Positions 10,428-30,648 of a stretch of 32,695 bases of DNA are shown piece after piece. Position 1 is the stretch's first letter. Each line of letters starts with the position of its first letter. The notes below the pieces were generated by a model. It made no database searches. It worked only from the letters and a program-made list of their open reading frames with translations, and was not told the DNA's origin. A program made the translations under genes and the position numbers. The DNA is from Gammaproteobacteria bacterium (GTDB lineage Bacteria > Pseudomonadota > Gammaproteobacteria > Tethybacterales > Persebacteraceae): NCBI GenBank assembly GCA_020027345.1, contig JAHRAH010000120.1, forward strand, positions 1 to 32,695. The letters are read 5' to 3'.

Positions 10428-10545
10428 CGTCATTCCTGCGAAAGCAGGAATCCACCGCCGAACGCCAACGGCGTCGGCGGCTAATCCCCCGATGCATTGA
10501 CACCTTCGGCGTCAACGCTGGATTCCTGCTTTCGCAGGAATGACG
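10428..10545. repeat. Perfect 27-bp inverted repeat pair after soeA
   Basis: CGTCATTCCTGCGAAAGCAG... (10428-10454) and its exact reverse complement (10519-10545) flank 64 nt that contain smaller GC-rich palindromes. Each arm is itself a hairpin around GCGAAAGC. Similar pairs occur at 11195-11268 and 12547-12666. The pair lies between the soeA stop and the promoter of the next accessory gene. Confidence 0.9.
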
Positions 10546-11194: not shown

Positions 11195-11268
11195 CGTCAT
11201 TCCCGCGAAAGCGGGAATCCATACAAACCCCGCGCCCTCTATGGATTCCCGCTTTCACGGGAATGACG
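11195..11268. repeat. Inverted repeat pair after accessory gene 10624
   Basis: CGTCATTCCCGCGAAAGCGG... (11195-11221) and an inverted copy (11242-11268) with one mismatch, separated by 20 nt. It starts 11 nt after the preceding stop codon and may serve as a terminator or stem for that transcript. Confidence 0.9.
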
Positions 11269-12546: not shown

Positions 12547-12666
12547 CGTCATTCCGGCGAAAGCCGGAATCCATACGGGCTTTGCTTTTGCCGACGGATT
12601 GCGGACGGCGGCGGATTTGGCTTTTTCTCCGGCCTTGTATGGATTCCAGCTTTCGCCGGAATGACG
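12547..12666. repeat. Inverted repeat pair after soeB
   Basis: CGTCATTCCGGCGAAAGCCG... (12547-12573) and its inverted copy (12640-12666), with one mismatch, flank 66 nt. The pair begins one nucleotide after the soeB stop codon and marks the left boundary of the restriction locus. Confidence 0.9.
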
Positions 12667-20715: not shown

Positions 20716-21633
20716 ATGAAGCCCGCGCTTTCCATCGTTGTTTTCACCGTGCTTTCCGGCGCCGGGCTGGGGCTGGCGGCGGCGCTCGCTTTTTTCGGCG
20801 GCGGCGACGCGCTTTTTTGGCGCGCGGCGGCGCTTTCGGTTTTGCTCACCGGCGGCGGCTTGCTGGCGAGCGTTTGGCATTTGGCAAACCCCAAAAACGC
20901 GTGGCGCGCGGTGATGCGCCTGCGCTCGTCGTGGCTTTCGCGCGAGGCGGTTTTGGCTTTTTTGTTTTTTGCGCTGACGGCGCTTTGGGCATTGCATCGT
21001 TACCGCAACGGCGGCGGCGGAATCGGCGGCGCGGTTTTGCCCGCGGCGGCGGGGTTTTGCGCGCTGGCGACGGTGTTTTGCACTGCGATGATTTATCAAT
21101 CGCTGAAACCGATAGCGGCGTGGAATCATCCGTTGACATCCATTAATTATCTCGCCCTTTCGCTGACGAGCGGAGCGGCGCTTTTTGCCGCGCTTTCCGG
21201 CGGGCGCGGCGCGGCTTTTGCGGCGGTTGTTTTTGCGGCGACATCCGCAGTCGGAAAATTAATGCATTACCGCCGCATCGGAAAAGCGAAAGGAATCCGC
21301 ATAGGCCGCGCGGCGGGCTTTTCGCGCGCGAAGGCGAAACTGCTGGAAGCCGGACATACGGGGCCGACTTTTCTCACGCGCGAATTTATATTTGACGCGC
21401 CCGCGGATTTGCTGCGGCGGTTGCGAATTGCCGCGATGCTTTTGTGTTTTGCCCCACCGGTCGCCGGCGCCTGCGCGATATTATTTGCAAAAGCCGCGCC
21501 GTCCCCGTTCGCGGAAACAGTAATGGCGGCGTCCATCCCCCCGATGTTTTGCGGCTTGTTATGCGAGCGCTGGCTGTTCTTCGCCGAAGCCCGCCACGCC
21601 GTCCGCGCCTACCACGGCGACGGCGCGCCGTAA
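20716..21633 (+). CDS. soeC: DmsC/SoeC-like membrane anchor subunit
   Basis: 305-residue integral membrane protein with eight predicted helices, from LSIVVFTVLSGAGLGLAAAL to the last near MAASIPPMFCGLLCERWLFF. DmsC-type features include HLANPKNAWRAVMRLRSSWLSRE after helix 2. It would anchor the molybdenum and iron-sulfur subunits and reduce quinone. It is the third subunit of the soe set, 8.2 kb from soeB. A TAGAAT 13 nt before the ATG is a possible own -10, so it may be transcribed separately since the insertion. The last 66 nt or so have a diverged second copy at 22304. It converges on the NYN gene with 12 nt between stop codons. Confidence 0.85.
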   Translation: MKPALSIVVFTVLSGAGLGLAAALAFFGGGDALFWRAAALSVLLTGGGLLASVWHLANPKNAWRAVMRLRSSWLSREAVLAFLFFALTALWALHRYRNGGGGIGGAVLPAAAGFCALATVFCTAMIYQSLKPIAAWNHPLTSINYLALSLTSGAALFAALSGGRGAAFAAVVFAATSAVGKLMHYRRIGKAKGIRIGRAAGFSRAKAKLLEAGHTGPTFLTREFIFDAPADLLRRLRIAAMLLCFAPPVAGACAILFAKAAPSPFAETVMAASIPPMFCGLLCERWLFFAEARHAVRAYHGDGAP

Positions 21634-21645
21634 ACGGCGCGGGCG

Positions 21646-22278
21646 TTACGCTTTTTTCCGGTGCGACAAATCCAAAGGCAACGATGCGCGGCGGGCAACC
21701 GGCGGATGACCGGGTTCGGACTCTTCCACAAAAGTGACCGACTCGTAAAAATCGTCCAGCGCGACAAAGACGCCGTTTTCTTCCGCCCACTTTCGCATGC
21801 GCAGGTTGCAGGAATACTCCCACGAAAGAACTTCTATGCGCCAGCCGCGCTTGTGCATCCGTTCCAGCGCGCAGTGAAATCCCTTGCCGGGACCTTCGTA
21901 ATATCCTTTGCCGTCGCCGGTGAGTAGCACGACGATGCCCGGGTCGCCGTTGTTGTCCAGCGCGTCCTCCATCATTTCCAACTGCAAAAAGCGGTCGGGG
22001 ACTTCCTGCTCGCCGCGCAGGGAACGCTCGCGGTCGTAGAGTTCCACCTTCACGCCCTTGCTGCGCAGGTTGCTCCAAAGCCGGCGCAACTGCGGCGGCA
22101 CCGAACCGGTCGCCAGCGCCTTTGCCACCGCACGGTCGGCGTGGGCCAGACGGTACATGTTTTCAAAATTGACGCGCAAACGGTAACTGGCGTCCGGGCT
22201 GCCCTCGCGCTCGTCCGCCAGCCCCTGCGCCCCGATAAAAATGTTGGAGTTGTCCCAGTAAACGAAAATCTTGTCCAT
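21646..22278 (-). CDS. NYN-domain (LabA/DUF88-like) protein
   Basis: 210-residue protein of the NYN family, a PIN-like RNase fold. The first strand KIFVYWDNSNIFIG carries the conserved Asp-Asn pair, and a central VVLLTGDGKGYY carries the second acidic cluster. The family is linked to RNA processing and is common in accessory and defence DNA. The ORF track starts far upstream, but an extended -10 TGTTATAAT ends 7 nt before ATG 22278, fixing the start and giving a leaderless mRNA. Upstream is a fragment of the soeC 3' end, then the DUF2130 gene on the other strand. The role here is unknown. Confidence 0.85.
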   Translation of the reverse strand: MDKIFVYWDNSNIFIGAQGLADEREGSPDASYRLRVNFENMYRLAHADRAVAKALATGSVPPQLRRLWSNLRSKGVKVELYDRERSLRGEQEVPDRFLQLEMMEDALDNNGDPGIVVLLTGDGKGYYEGPGKGFHCALERMHKRGWRIEVLSWEYSCNLRMRKWAEENGVFVALDDFYESVTFVEESEPGHPPVARRASLPLDLSHRKKA

Positions 22279-22285
22279 ACGGTTG

Positions 22286-22294
22286 ATTATAACA
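22286..22294 (-). promoter_or_regulatory. Extended -10 promoter of the NYN gene
   Basis: On the minus strand this reads TGTTATAAT, a consensus extended -10, 7 nt from the start codon. It is the clearest example in the window of a leaderless arrangement. Confidence 0.7.
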
Positions 22295-22303
22295 CGATAA
22301 CGC

Positions 22304-22369
22304 CTGATGCTTTGCGGACTTCTGTGCGAGCGCTGGCTATCCTTTGCCGAGTCCTGCCGCGCCGTCCGC
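22304..22369 (+). pseudogene. Diverged duplicate of the soeC 3' end
   Basis: This segment aligns without gaps to the last part of soeC (21541-21606), about 52 of 66 positions identical by eye. The translation MLCGLLCERWLSFAESCRAVR compares with MFCGLLCERWLFFAEARHAVR. Many differences are synonymous, so this is a remnant of another, diverged soeC-like allele and not a fresh copy. It has no start, no membrane helices before it and no stop. It reads in frame into the DUF2130 ORF, which explains the over-long ORF-track entry. Confidence 0.75.
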
Positions 22370-22441: not shown

Positions 22442-23968
22442 ATGAAAAAAGAAGACCTGGTGACATGCCCCAAATGCGATAATGAGTTTCCGCTTGCCGA
22501 AGCGGTGAGGGGAGCGTTGCAGACGGAACGCGTTGCTTTGCGCGCGGAGATTGAACAAACAACACGCATGAGCGCGAAAGCGGAACGGGATGCGGCGGTT
22601 AAAGAAGCCCTCCGCGAGGTGGAGGAAAAAGCCGGCCGTGAAAAACAGGCGATGCAAGAGCGCCTTAAGCAATCCGACTTGACGGCCGAAAAAGCCAGTA
22701 AAGAGGCGGCCAAAGCCATTGAAGAACAGATGAGGGCGGAAAACGCTCTTAAAAAAGCGGAGGCGGAAACCGCCGAAAAAGCGAGCGTTATGGCGCAAAA
22801 ATATGTGAACGACGCCGTTCAGGCCGAAGTCCGAAAAGTGAAACTTGCCGCAGGGCGCGAAGTGCAGGCAATGCAAAATCGCCTGAATGACTCCGACAAG
22901 CGGGCAAATCAGGCCCGGGAAGATGCGAACGAAGCCATCAGGAAAAAGACGGAACTGGTCACTCGCATTAAAAGCATGCCCGCGGAAGTTGCTGAAAAGG
23001 CGGAGACGCTTGCGAAGCAACAAGTGGAAGGCGCCGTTAAAAGCGCGGTACAGGAAACGGAAGCAACCATGCGCCGGGAACACAATGCGACGGTTGCCGC
23101 GCTTAGGGCCGCGAAAGAAAGTGCAACGAAACGCGCAGAAGAACGCGAGAGTCAAATCCGCGCGGAAGAGGCGGACAAACAGCAATTGACGATTGCGACC
23201 AAAGAAAAAACAATTGGCGATTTGCGCCGGGAATTGGCGTTGCTGCAAAGCAAAGCCACTCCCGCACATCCGGAGTCGGAGGGCGAAGTACTCGAACAAA
23301 TCGTCCAAAGCAAATTGGAAAGGTCGTTTGTCATTGACGGGGTTCAACCCATTCCCAAAGGCGTGGCTGGGGCTGACATTTTGCAGGAGGTGCGCGATGA
23401 CAGCGCCCGTTTTTGCGGCCGCATTTTGTGGGAAGTTAAAAACGCCAAGTTGTGGCAAAAAGCATGGTTGGGAAAATTAAAAAATGACCAGCAAAAAGCG
23501 GAAGCTGACATTGCTGTGATTGTTTCTGATGCTCTTCCCCCGGAAGCGGAAGGCACCGGCTTCGCGCTCGCCAATAATGGCGTCTGGATAACCGGGAAAA
23601 AAGGGGTTATTCCTCTGGCCACTGCGTTGCGCGTCCAATTAAAGGAGGTGTCGGACGCCCGCGCCTATTCCGTGGGCAAAGAAGAAAAGATGGACATGCT
23701 GTACAAGTATTTGACCGGGCCCCAATTTAAGCGGCTGGTTGAATCCATTGGCAGCGCCTACGAGGAGATGAAAGTCCAATTGGAAAAAGAGCGCGCTCAA
23801 ATGGGCAAACACTGGGCAACGCGCGAAAAACATCTGAATCGCGTGCTTGAAGGCATGGCCACCATGCGCGGGGACTTTGAAGGCATCGTCGGAAAGCAAC
23901 CCGCGCTTGACATGTTGGGAGATGAGGTTTTGGGAATAGACAACGATGAGGGCGGGGAAGATAAATAA
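22442..23968 (+). CDS. DUF2130 coiled-coil protein, possible nuclease
   Basis: 508 residues. The N-terminus is a short zinc-knuckle-like segment (LVTCPKCDNEFPLAEAV). Residues of about 25-280 form a long charged coiled coil rich in A, E, K and R. The C-terminal half is the DUF2130 domain. It contains GADILQEV (D312) and, 19 residues later, LWEVKN (E331, K333). This is the spacing of a PD-(D/E)xK nuclease site, so DNA cleavage is possible but unproven. The start is set by the promoter and the Shine-Dalgarno; the 45 codons before it in the ORF track are the soeC remnant. The product could sense or bind nucleic acid. Together with the adjacent NYN gene it looks like accessory, perhaps defensive, DNA. 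Confidence 0.82.
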   Translation: MKKEDLVTCPKCDNEFPLAEAVRGALQTERVALRAEIEQTTRMSAKAERDAAVKEALREVEEKAGREKQAMQERLKQSDLTAEKASKEAAKAIEEQMRAENALKKAEAETAEKASVMAQKYVNDAVQAEVRKVKLAAGREVQAMQNRLNDSDKRANQAREDANEAIRKKTELVTRIKSMPAEVAEKAETLAKQQVEGAVKSAVQETEATMRREHNATVAALRAAKESATKRAEERESQIRAEEADKQQLTIATKEKTIGDLRRELALLQSKATPAHPESEGEVLEQIVQSKLERSFVIDGVQPIPKGVAGADILQEVRDDSARFCGRILWEVKNAKLWQKAWLGKLKNDQQKAEADIAVIVSDALPPEAEGTGFALANNGVWITGKKGVIPLATALRVQLKEVSDARAYSVGKEEKMDMLYKYLTGPQFKRLVESIGSAYEEMKVQLEKERAQMGKHWATREKHLNRVLEGMATMRGDFEGIVGKQPALDMLGDEVLGIDNDEGGEDK

Positions 23969-27500: not shown

Positions 27501-27887
27501 GTTTATTCCGCCGGGGAAAGAATGCGGTATTACTGGCGGCTGGGCGGATGCGAATCGCAAAGGGCGGTCGGCGATGTTTTGGCCGAATGGGAGGACAGAT
27601 TCGGGCGCGCGCCCGCCGCCGCGCAAATATTAATCGCAAGCCACCGCGTGCGTTTGCTTGCGGAATCGGCGGGGGCGAATTCCGTGCGCGCCGCAAGGGG
27701 AGGGAAAACTGTTATTGATTTTTCCGGCGACGAAATATGCCGCGAAAGTTTAATGCAAAAAAGCGGCGAAGAAGAATGCGAATGGTCGGGCGAAACGGTA
27801 ATGCTCCCCCCTTGCGAAAGCGCATTGGCGCGCGCCGAACAAGCCGGAGATTTCTTGCGCGCGCTCGGCGAAAAAGCGGCGGCGTAA
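24549..27887 (+). CDS. mfd: Transcription-repair coupling factor Mfd
   Basis: 1112-residue DNA translocase that removes stalled RNA polymerase at lesions and recruits UvrA. The N-terminal third is the UvrB-like module (LLPDWDVLPYDIFSPS, with GQMDVFPPG). The RNA-polymerase-interaction region contains GDFVVHRQHGIGKCHG and FEIEYADEKRLWLPV. The RecG-like motor has Walker A ADVGFGKTEIAM (K609), DEEHRFG (D704), LSATPIPRT and HQLRGRVGR. The C-terminal domain is present but short. The gene is complete and its length is near the family norm of about 1150. Its last 16 codons are duplicated at 30473-30530, beyond the accessory TPR and zinc-ribbon genes. Confidence 0.96.
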   Translation: MKIARTASPPGTVLRRAAVCGAGEALLLADAARDSPALFLARDAAQAAHIMDELAFFAPALPARLLPDWDVLPYDIFSPSAETAGRRIAALAAAGGDGITVAAAATALEKFPPPEFVAARTFDLQTGGKLDLHAMKERLLRCGYTNTGRVCAPGEFSLCGGQMDVFPPGCDSPFRLVMLDDEIEQIRIFDPRTQRSQKETSRVRLLPAGECDLSAEGRERFLSAWRERFGEEEPPPEMSAEKAPAGAECLLPLFFEKSAALFDYLTSRHLLFVADGARDAAADFLQRARERETSARARGRAVLPAEELFLNAREFFARAKAQGAIELRGALSATKPPPLLRRAGETPAQSAAAAARAVAAKGMRVVVATAGEGARAAMLREFAKEKETNRARAIDGFGELEKCGAGEITVAVAALRGGFLLPERKLAVICENETTAGARAVLRAQNSGDFSDAGEILPGDFVVHRQHGIGKCHGLKTATLGGIAGEFFEIEYADEKRLWLPVAQMHQLCRHHGGGALSSLGGGGWRRARRRAEKNARDTAARLLEIHARRLAAGGGGIRPDEKTLAQFASRFPWPETPDQSRAIEETLADMRAEKPMDRLIAADVGFGKTEIAMRAACACALSGAQTAILAPTTLLAEQHARNFADRFAGFPATVGALNRLTGAREKKQLLQSLAEGKTDIAVGTHALLQTSARYKNLGLVVIDEEHRFGVRQKEHFKSLRANVNVLSLSATPIPRTTAMATEGLRDLSLVSTPPAGRLPIQTMVRPFSRGVIAEACEREMQRGGQIYFVHNDIGGIEDAALQLREWIPRAQTAVAHGRMPAARIEEAMRRFLRGEAHILVCTTIIESGLDIANVNTVIVNRADAMGVSRLHQLRGRVGRALHQGYAYFLTPAFGAATKEGAERLAAVRDCAQLGGGFLLAMRDLEIRGAGEILGERQSGEIAGVGCALYQKMVREAARALRGKPAQSPVTVDLGEQARLPENYVYSAGERMRYYWRLGGCESQRAVGDVLAEWEDRFGRAPAAAQILIASHRVRLLAESAGANSVRAARGGKTVIDFSGDEICRESLMQKSGEEECEWSGETVMLPPCESALARAEQAGDFLRALGEKAAA

Positions 27888-27890
27888 ACG
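27833..27890 (+). repeat. mfd 3'-end direct repeat, left copy
   Basis: 58 bp covering the last codons and stop of mfd plus three nt. It is identical to 30473-30530 except for one position (27884 G, 30524 A), which is synonymous in the final alanine codon. The two copies are 2640 bp apart and bracket the TPR and zinc-ribbon genes. Confidence 0.95.
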
Positions 27891-27941
27891 CCGCTATGCC
27901 GATTGTGTGCATCGGGGCGGGCTGCCGGAAAGCGGTTTTTG

Positions 27942-27950
27942 TGGTATAAT
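27942..27950 (+). promoter_or_regulatory. Extended -10 promoter of the TPR gene
   Basis: TGGTATAAT is a consensus extended -10 about 58 nt before the start codon. The resulting leader carries a strong hairpin and a Shine-Dalgarno. Confidence 0.65.
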
Positions 27951-27961
27951 GGCGTCAAACG

Positions 27962-27987
27962 CCCGGCGGCGGGATGCCCCCGCCGGG
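27962..27987 (+). promoter_or_regulatory. Leader hairpin of the TPR gene
   Basis: CCCGGCGG (27962-27969) pairs with CCGCCGGG (27980-27987), extended inside by GGG/CCC around ATG with one bulged C. It is followed by AAATTTTC and then GGAGCGGAGAA before the start codon. It may stabilise the mRNA or act as an attenuator; only the structure is seen. Confidence 0.5.
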
Positions 27988-28008
27988 AAATTTTCTTGGA
28001 GCGGAGAA

Positions 28009-29379
28009 ATGACGGTGATGGATTTGACAGAACTGAAAAAACAGGCGGGCCAACTTCTGTATCAGCAGAAGTGGAACGAATCGATTGCGGCGCTGACCGA
28101 AATCATTTCGGTTATGCCGAACAATCCTGAAAAAGCCGAGGTTTACAATAACCGCGGCAGCGCTTACGCCAACAAAGGCGAGCAGAAGCTTGCCATCGCC
28201 GACTACAATAAAGCGATTGAATTGGATTCCAATTACGCCATGGCGCATAGCAATCGCGGTGTTGCCTACGGCAAAAAGGGCGAACACGAACTTGCCATTG
28301 CCGATATGAGCAAGGCGATCGAGTTGAAGCCCGATGACGCCGAGGCGTGTAATAACCGTGGCGTCGCCTACAAAAACAAGGGAGATTACGACCTTGCCAT
28401 CGCCGACTTGGACAAGGCGATAAAGTTGAAGCCCGATTACGCTGATGCGTATAATAATCGCGGCATTGTCCATAGCAAAAAAGGAGAGCATGACCTTGCC
28501 ATCGCCGACTTGGACAAGGCGATAGAGTTGAAGCCCGACGACGCTGAGATGTATAATAACCGCGGCATTGTCCACAAAGGCAAAGGGAATTACGACTTCG
28601 CCATCGCCGATTACGACGAGGCGATAAAAATAGACCCTAAGTGCGCCAATGCGTATAACAATCGCGGGCTTGCTCGCGGCAAAAATGGCGAGTATGATCT
28701 CGCCATTGCCGATTTTGACAAAGCGATAGAAATTAATTCCGGGGACAAATCGGCGATTCACAACCGCGGGGTTGCGATGGCACTGAAAGACGCGAAGGCG
28801 GCGCGCACGGAAATTGAGGAACAATATAAGAAACAGGCAGAGTCCGACCAGAAAAAATTTGAGCAAACGCTCGAAAAATATCGGTCCGACATTTTAGGGC
28901 GGGGTGGTTACAAGCAACGCGCGAGCAGATATGACGACGCTTTCAAGCGCGTGGATGCGGATATTGCGGCCAAAACTCAGCGTCTGCAAAAGTTGGCCAT
29001 TTGGATTTTTGGGACAATTGGAGGCGTTGGAGTGTTTATATGGTTGGCTGCGAAACCGACGAGCGCATTTTGGCTTTTGCCTTTTGTCACCCTCGGTGCA
29101 TTGGTGCTGGCACCCTTTTGGTGGGAGATTCGGCTGCTTAACTGCGACAAAACGAAAGTGTGGGCGTTGCGCGAAGACGCTTATACGAAAGGCGTTCTCG
29201 CCACGCTGATTGATGTGGACAAAGAATCGCGAGCGGAGCGGGTTAATCGCTTTTTTGACCACCACGACCGGCGAGGGAGTGCGCAGTTAATTCTGGATTC
29301 CGAAAGCGCACGGAAGGACGACGGCGTTGCGGAACGGATGATAAATGTCATTCGCTCGGGCGATGGAAAAAAGGAGTAA
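28009..29379 (+). CDS. TPR-repeat membrane protein
   Basis: 456 residues. A degenerate first TPR (about 8-41) is followed by six regular 34-residue TPRs (about 44-247), each like NNRGxAYxxKGExxLAIADxx. A charged coiled coil (about 262-325) leads to two transmembrane helices (about 330-347 and 352-371) and an 85-residue charged tail, probably cytosolic. It is likely a membrane-tethered protein-protein scaffold; no enzyme motif is seen. ATG 28009 follows GGAGCGGAG, which favours it over the ORF-track start. Codon choice is more AT-rich at third positions than in mfd (AAT, GAT, TAT, CGT are common), which hints at foreign origin. It lies between the two 58-bp mfd-end repeats. Confidence 0.85.
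   Translation: MTVMDLTELKKQAGQLLYQQKWNESIAALTEIISVMPNNPEKAEVYNNRGSAYANKGEQKLAIADYNKAIELDSNYAMAHSNRGVAYGKKGEHELAIADMSKAIELKPDDAEACNNRGVAYKNKGDYDLAIADLDKAIKLKPDYADAYNNRGIVHSKKGEHDLAIADLDKAIELKPDDAEMYNNRGIVHKGKGNYDFAIADYDEAIKIDPKCANAYNNRGLARGKNGEYDLAIADFDKAIEINSGDKSAIHNRGVAMALKDAKAARTEIEEQYKKQAESDQKKFEQTLEKYRSDILGRGGYKQRASRYDDAFKRVDADIAAKTQRLQKLAIWIFGTIGGVGVFIWLAAKPTSAFWLLPFVTLGALVLAPFWWEIRLLNCDKTKVWALREDAYTKGVLATLIDVDKESRAERVNRFFDHHDRRGSAQLILDSESARKDDGVAERMINVIRSGDGKKE
28138..28749 (+). repeat. Six tandem 102-bp TPR-coding units
   Basis: Each 34-codon TPR is recognisable at DNA level. Blocks such as CTTGCCATCGCCGACTTGGA and GCGATAGAGTTGAAGCCCGA recur nearly unchanged every 102 nt, especially between units 3 and 4. 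Such similarity allows gain or loss of units by recombination. This is a coding repeat, not a CRISPR. Confidence 0.8.
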
Positions 29380-29624
29380 ATTTTTTCTTCGTCATTTCGC
29401 GCCCTTTTAAAAAAATGGAAAAATGCGGCTTCGCCGAAAGGCAATCCAACAAGCCAAAAAGGCACGGAAAAGGGCGGCGCAAGATAGCGTAGGGCAACGC
29501 CTTGTGTCGCGGTAATCTCGCGCAGTCCTGTGCCGGGATAGTCAGCCCAGCGTTTGCCGCCGCGCTGACAGGAGTATTGCCACGGTTATCACCATCGTTG
29601 CCGCCCTGTAAAAAATATTTTCTT

Positions 29625-29649
29625 AAATGGGAAAGAACGCCCATTTTTT
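29625..29649 (+). terminator. Possible terminator before the zinc-ribbon gene
   Basis: AAATGGG and CCCATTT form a 7-bp stem with an 8-nt loop, and the T-run continues after it. It could end the TPR transcript. The preceding 245 nt (29380-29624) show no gene or other recognisable feature. The T-run abuts the next promoter. Confidence 0.35.
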
Positions 29650-29657
29650 GGTATACT
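29649..29657 (+). promoter_or_regulatory. Extended -10 promoter of the zinc-ribbon gene
   Basis: TGGTATACT, an extended -10, lies 6 nt before ATG 29664, so the mRNA should be leaderless. Confidence 0.6.
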
Positions 29658-29663
29658 GATGGA

Positions 29664-30020
29664 ATGGCTTTAGGACAATGCCACGAATGCGGCGGGAAAA
29701 TGAGCACCGAGGCGGCGACTTGTCCGCATTGCGGTGCGCCGGGTAAGGGCGCATCAAAATCGGAATCCGCTGTTGCGCCTGTCTCCCCTACGCCCCCGTC
29801 GCCGCCGAATAATACCGCGGCGAAATCGGACGGTGTCTACGCCACTACCCAAGCCACGGGCAAAAAGTGGAAAGGGCTGAAATTAATCGCTTTGGGGGCG
29901 ATGGTGTTGGGACTGGTTATTTCTTTCAACACAGCAGGATTTTCCGGATTGGTTATTGGCGCAGTCGGGGTCGTGTTACTTATTTACGCCTCTCTGATGT
30001 CGTGGTGGCATCACGACTGA
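29664..30020 (+). CDS. Zinc-ribbon membrane protein
   Basis: 118 residues. An N-terminal zinc ribbon with two CxxC pairs (CHECGGKMSTEAATCPHCG) is followed by a proline/serine-rich linker of about 40 residues. Two adjacent hydrophobic helices follow (LIALGAMVLGLVISF and GLVIGAVGVVLLIYASL), and the protein ends in WWHHD. This is a common layout for small bacterial membrane proteins of unknown function. The start is set by the -10 element 6 nt upstream; the ORF-track start at 29502 lies in non-coding DNA. It shares the mfd-end-bracketed cassette with the TPR gene, and a partnership between the two membrane proteins is possible but unproven. Confidence 0.78.
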   Translation: MALGQCHECGGKMSTEAATCPHCGAPGKGASKSESAVAPVSPTPPSPPNNTAAKSDGVYATTQATGKKWKGLKLIALGAMVLGLVISFNTAGFSGLVIGAVGVVLLIYASLMSWWHHD

Positions 30021-30472: not shown

Positions 30473-30530
30473 CGCCGAACAAGCCGGAGATTTCTTGCGC
30501 GCGCTCGGCGAAAAAGCGGCGGCATAAACG
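30473..30530 (+). repeat. mfd 3'-end direct repeat, right copy
   Basis: 57 of 58 bp are identical to 27833-27890, including the terminal mfd codons and the TAA. Upstream, in the mfd reading frame, a TAG follows KLTLPRRSSAN, so this is a non-coding remnant, not a second mfd. It marks the right boundary of the accessory cassette. Confidence 0.95.
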
Positions 30531-30540
30531 GCATTCTTCT

Positions 30541-30648
30541 GCGTCATTCCCGCACTCCTGTTAAAAGGCGGGAATCCAGCGAATTAAAACCATCCGCACA
30601 AATTAATTTGCTGGATTCCCGCCTCTGGAAAAAGTGCGGGAATGACGC
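30541..30648. repeat. Inverted pair of long-form repeats
   Basis: GCGTCATTCCCGCACTCCTG... (30541-30580) and an inverted copy (30610-30648) with a differing centre, separated by 29 nt. The right arm ends 2 nt from the stop codon of the minus-strand exported-protein gene, so the pair could form a bidirectional terminator-like stem. Confidence 0.85.

Follow-up and report, generated by a model that had tools for sequence, protein, structure and literature searches.

A 67-bp segment at positions 22303-22369 of the window (the whole 32,695-nt stretch of DNA analysed here) is interpreted, with about even confidence, as the worn scar of an insertion in which an NYN-domain gene was placed behind soeC by the route proposed below, so that the 3' end of soeC became duplicated as a long direct repeat. 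The segment forms a direct repeat with sharp edges, an accessory gene lies between the copies, the outer copy has decayed, and the arrangement recurs at seven core genes of the genome.

The intact core gene soeC (20716-21633, plus strand) encodes a predicted SoeC/DmsC-like membrane anchor subunit (PF04976, E = 1.9e-17), with orthologues 59% and 55% identical in two genomes of the same family. Its segment 21540-21606 (proximal copy, plus strand) was aligned without gaps to 22303-22369 (distal copy, plus strand) at 53 of 67 positions (79%) and a spacing of 763; the pair was found by repeat search and again by BLAST. An earlier note, made from the sequence alone, had matched 22304-22369 to the end of soeC at about 79%, which was borne out with the correction that the homology stops 27 nt before the stop codon. 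The distal copy, truncated at both ends, lacks the conserved tail (A/L)YHG. The ungapped score of the pair was 25 (+1/-2); in 150 dinucleotide shuffles of the sequence behind soeC the scores averaged 9.1 and never exceeded 13, by which chance and low complexity were ruled out as the source of the match. When the soeC protein was compared with the whole genome, only soeC itself and the distal fragment were matched. The NYN gene reported between the copies is real (21646-22278 including the stop codon, minus strand; PF01936, E = 2.9e-7). It is convergent with soeC, the two stop codons being separated by 12 nt, and the distal copy sits behind its start, followed by a DUF2130 gene (22442-23968, plus strand; PF09903, E = 2e-47). 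The soe operon is also split elsewhere, by two small genes in the soeA-soeB interval and, in the soeB-soeC interval, by a restriction-modification set of type III that includes AAA and PIN genes; single REP-like repeats (10511-10545, 11234-11268 and 12632-12666) were seen at the edges of these accessory blocks.

Six soeC orthologues, from the two same-family genomes and four more distant metagenome-assembled genomes, were used for comparison. All six carry ERWLFFAEA near the C-terminal end, followed in most of them by RH.VR and a YHG-like tail. The in-gene copy keeps this consensus (ERWLFFAEARHxVRxYHG), whereas the distal copy reads L-S-FAE-S-C-R, with four changes at residues kept in nearly all relatives. 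Because conserved residues are altered and the tail is lost, the distal copy is taken to be a fragment in decay, and it shows no sign of function. At one position soeC has Pro and the fragment Leu, where the relatives have Leu (3/6) or Ile (2/6), a slight hint that the fragment was not derived from the present soeC allele.

A second pair lies in the same window, as the earlier note had also seen, at a gene which we take, by recognition of its sequence, to be mfd. The proximal copy (27833-27890, plus strand, 58 bp) extends 3 nt beyond the stop codon, and the distal copy (30473-30530, plus strand) is identical to it at 57 of 58 positions. A TPR-repeat protein (27907-29379, plus strand; PF00515, E = 1.2e-60) and a zinc-ribbon-like open reading frame (within 29502-30020) are encoded between them. 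The cassette may be a patchwork, since 45 bp of it (29521-29565) recur with 100% identity in the start region of a gene called on another contig (G000:C114; L124 8247-8783, minus strand). Directly behind the distal copy stands a REP-type inverted doublet of about 108 bp (30541-30648, plus strand), which belongs to a large family with very many relatives genome-wide.

The source genome is a 2.36-Mb draft of 194 contigs, 86.5% complete and with 0.71% contamination, of which 1.36 Mb (58%) was surveyed for low-copy partial gene copies within 15 kb. Genes were called by codon usage and named by Pfam, and the restriction enzyme was named by PADLOC. In this 58% of the genome the convincing cases were seven core genes, ruvA, an xdhB-like gene, soxG, nusB and purL being added to soeC and mfd. 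In all seven pairs the truncated copy lies downstream in the same orientation, 0.1-6.4 kb away, is 50-200 bp long and lacks the 5' part of the gene, and accessory genes or a REP doublet stand between the copies. The soeC (67 bp, 79%) and mfd (58 bp, 98%) pairs enclose the NYN gene and the TPR gene with the zinc-ribbon-like frame, respectively. The ruvA pair (L026; 50 bp, 96%) and the nusB pair (L141; 90 bp, 91%) have only a REP doublet and a REP element, respectively, as 'cargo'. The pair at the xdhB-like molybdopterin enzyme gene (L077; 100 bp, 94%) encloses another NYN gene, only distantly related to that of the window; the soxG pair (L017; 200 bp, 95.5%) a type IIG restriction enzyme and a GNAT/PIN protein; and the purL pair (L118; 87 bp, 89%), whose copy ends 126 nt before the stop codon, PGM/PMM-like genes. 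In six of the seven pairs the point where homology is lost falls close to the stop codon, from 27 nt upstream of it to 3 nt downstream, and the edges are abrupt. No common sequence was found at the joints of the seven pairs.

All nine downstream matches in the gene-end class of the survey were in direct orientation. No convincing counterpart was found at gene 5' ends, the matches of that class being paralogues and the soeC pair seen from its other side; the asymmetry between 3' and 5' ends gives P = 0.016 at 6:0 and P = 0.008 at 7:0. Four further, weaker gene-end matches were set aside: L011 (a tandem EF-hand-like region), L074 (multi-copy and REP-rich), L081 (protease repeats with the gene call on the wrong strand) and lipA (copies on different contigs). 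In L074 a segment of about 90-114 bp with the end of a membrane-protein gene occurs three times in a REP-rich stretch (375-488, 564-650 and 850-960), and lipA-like 3' ends lie on three contigs (L094 4594-5265, L076 291-395 and L136 4772-5356), that of L076 being a 105-bp intergenic fragment. In 400 kb sampled from a relative (G001) no comparable case was found; two would be expected at an equal rate and none has a probability of 0.13, so an absence from that genome is not implied.

The differences between copies were examined in the reading frame of the gene. Under duplication in place, the gene copy gathers synonymous changes and the fragment gathers all changes. Of the 14 differences in the soeC pair, seven were synonymous and seven nonsynonymous when averaged over paths (8:6 on the shortest path), and the description of these changes as mostly synonymous in the earlier note did not hold. 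Their synonymous share is above the neutral expectation of 25% (P about 0.01-0.04), and 7-8 of 14 agrees with duplication in place and later decay (P = 0.12-0.25) at least as well as with a diverged donor allele. When the seven pairs were pooled, 29.5 of 50 changes were synonymous, whereas duplication in place would give about 41% (P = 0.011); in the five less decayed pairs, a split chosen after the data had been seen, the figure was 19.5 of 26 (P about 0.001-0.002). Synonymous to nonsynonymous ratios were 7:1 in nusB, 6.5:2.5 in soxG, 3:7 in purL and 7:7 in soeC. The pooled synonymous excess, together with homology that ends at the stop codon, favours an origin of the gene end, along with the cargo, from a related but diverged lineage, a choice that soeC alone does not decide. 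An end of homology near the stop codon is as expected if the downstream DNA of the donor differed. The suggestion that the cassette arrived with flanking DNA from a different strain is thus supported by the pooled pairs, but not by the divergence of soeC itself. A donor soeC allele, which the earlier note had proposed to look for, was not found; the two same-family genomes compared, both from other genera, have soeC genes 59% and 55% identical and lack synteny.

In the route that we propose, incoming DNA from a related lineage would carry the soeC 3' end and an accessory gene and would be homologous to the chromosome at one of its sides only. The piece would either be closed by end joining to a circle, which a single crossover within the gene end would then integrate, or be joined once by homology and once illegitimately. 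The product would be the full gene, the cargo, the truncated gene end and the old downstream DNA in this order, and the truncated copy would decay afterwards. Homologous recombination, as suggested earlier, would hence be retained in a modified form: ordinary two-sided recombination leaves no second, 5'-truncated gene end, and either one-sided homology with an illegitimate joint or a single-crossover circle is needed. Insertion at a 3' end leaves the gene and its promoter intact, for which reason such ends would be favoured; as only 3'-end insertion does so, the absence of 5' cases needs no special targeting. Because ComEC was not found in the 86.5%-complete bin and Ku was not found in the genome, neither natural transformation nor Ku-type end joining is claimed as the entry or closing step. 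The proposed route is also weakened by the two cases whose only 'cargo' is a REP doublet, and by the draft state of the genome, for whose junctions there is a single assembly of the species.

The most serious alternative, which we consider possible though clearly less probable, is duplication in place, in which, during the capture of foreign DNA, 50-300 bp of the gene end of the recipient itself are copied through staggered breaks or slipped repair, so that the copies start identical and the distal one is unconstrained. This is the literal sense of the term 'target duplication' in the literature, and it fits the topology and the decay seen at soeC and purL (7:7 and 3:7); for the soeC pair its log-likelihood was -10.1, against -12.1 for two functional alleles. 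Against it stand the pooled synonymous fraction, which is too high (P = 0.011, with nusB at 7:1 and soxG at 6.5:2.5), a homology that halts at the stop codon rather than entering intergenic DNA, and the lack of Ku. That two strains' alleles were joined in a metagenome assembly chimera has very little probability: the bin is a draft of 194 contigs, the copy pairs resemble strain alleles and REP repeats can mislead assemblers, but contamination is 0.71%, and a k-mer assembler could cross the left edges of the distal copies, which are not repeats, only with real reads that span them. The distal copies of soeC and purL, moreover, have decayed and are not functional alleles, and the 3'/5' asymmetry also speaks against a chimera.

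Movement or recombination of REP doublets, driven by a REP-associated (RAYT) transposase and dragging or duplicating the adjoining gene end, appears improbable. Four of the seven proximal copies are immediately followed by a REP core, as are 15% of gene ends overall (P = 0.012), the copies of ruvA and of nusB have only a REP element between them, and one Y1 transposase is present in the genome; yet REPs gather behind genes anyway, none is found at soeC or xdhB, and REP or IS200-type movement is not known to make a target duplication of 50-200 bp. REP elements may supply joints, though soeC and xdhB are without them. The single Y1 (RAYT-like) transposase gene, on G000:C83, has REP cores on both sides. 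A site-specific recombinase that integrates islands into the 3' ends of genes, at an attachment site carrying the gene end as for e14 at icd, would produce an equal anatomy, with the end restored, the old end displaced downstream and the copies diverged. Islands of the e14/icd type need an integrase and one specific target gene, and leave a displaced, diverged gene end behind the insert. Such an end is also seen here, but there is no recombinase between the soeC copies and no constant attachment core; neither the 0.7-kb soeC nor the 0.8-kb xdhB cargo holds an integrase, the seven targets are unrelated, the duplications range from 50 to 200 bp and no core site is shared at the edges. This explanation is very unlikely, being already largely refuted by the variety of targets.

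Among known systems, the soeC pattern fits a further case of insertion with long target duplication, a kind that is known but rarely catalogued. Insertions of this kind were reported in Helicobacter pylori (Nobusato et al. 2000) and are characterized, as described in PMC1643837, PMC3031569 and PMC4978471, by accessory genes, often of restriction-modification systems, that have no obvious recombinase and are flanked by direct repeats of host sequence, long and of variable length. On that description the likeness lies in an insert between long direct host repeats (67 bp at soeC and 50-200 bp at the six others), and in lengths that vary and targets that differ among the seven insertions. A restriction-modification gene, the type IIG enzyme at soxG, is carried in one of the seven cases; the soeC cargo is an NYN gene. 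The present cases differ in that a core-gene 3' end is almost always what has been duplicated, in that NYN and TPR genes are among the cargo, and in that the two copies resemble diverged alleles; they are known here from a single genome, with no empty-site strain available for comparison. It is unusual that the cases are so many and are confined to core-gene ends. In Escherichia coli, when the incoming DNA shared homology with nothing but the end of lacZ, 56 of 60 clones had partial duplications of lacZ (109-950 bp) and not deletions; these were attributed to shortening of the DNA, its re-closure to a circle and one crossover (PMC3240628). The present order is the same, namely the full gene, the insert and a truncated 3' end downstream in direct orientation, although lacZ was targeted by a laboratory plasmid, whereas natural cargo and diverged copies are seen here (HFIR/lacZ, PMC3240628). 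Neisseria minimal mobile elements, whole-gene cassettes swapped between conserved genes by homologous recombination, differ in that, as they are defined, both conserved flanks are used in the exchange and no gene end need be left behind (PMC3082526).

The NYN family has an RNase-like fold. A paralogue of the window gene (73% amino acid identity; G000:C157 15683-16315, L041) lies directly before an rne-like (RNase E-like) gene, and the gene is absent from the four other genomes of the order that were compared. Its subfamily is rare (4 of 274 genomes of the class) and adjoins soeC, an rne-like gene or a gyrA-like gene; this distribution and the varied neighbours are consistent with a mobile accessory gene. 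No evident gene-end copy was seen by eye at the other NYN loci on C12, C98 and C189, and a scan of viral contigs gave no match to the NYN protein.

The entry of short accessory genes into chromosomes without integrases or transposons is usually invisible. Here at least seven scars of differing age (98% to 79% identity between copies) lie at core-gene ends, and their substitution pattern can separate copies made in place from ends borne by a donor; duplication of a core-gene end also provides a simple search rule for recent gene gains. It is a bolder and rather doubtful proposal that this lineage gains genes mainly by a recombinase-free route at core-gene 3' ends, with the donor's gene end travelling along and leaving a datable allele fossil. 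If this were true, the donor and the age of each accessory gene would be readable from its scar.
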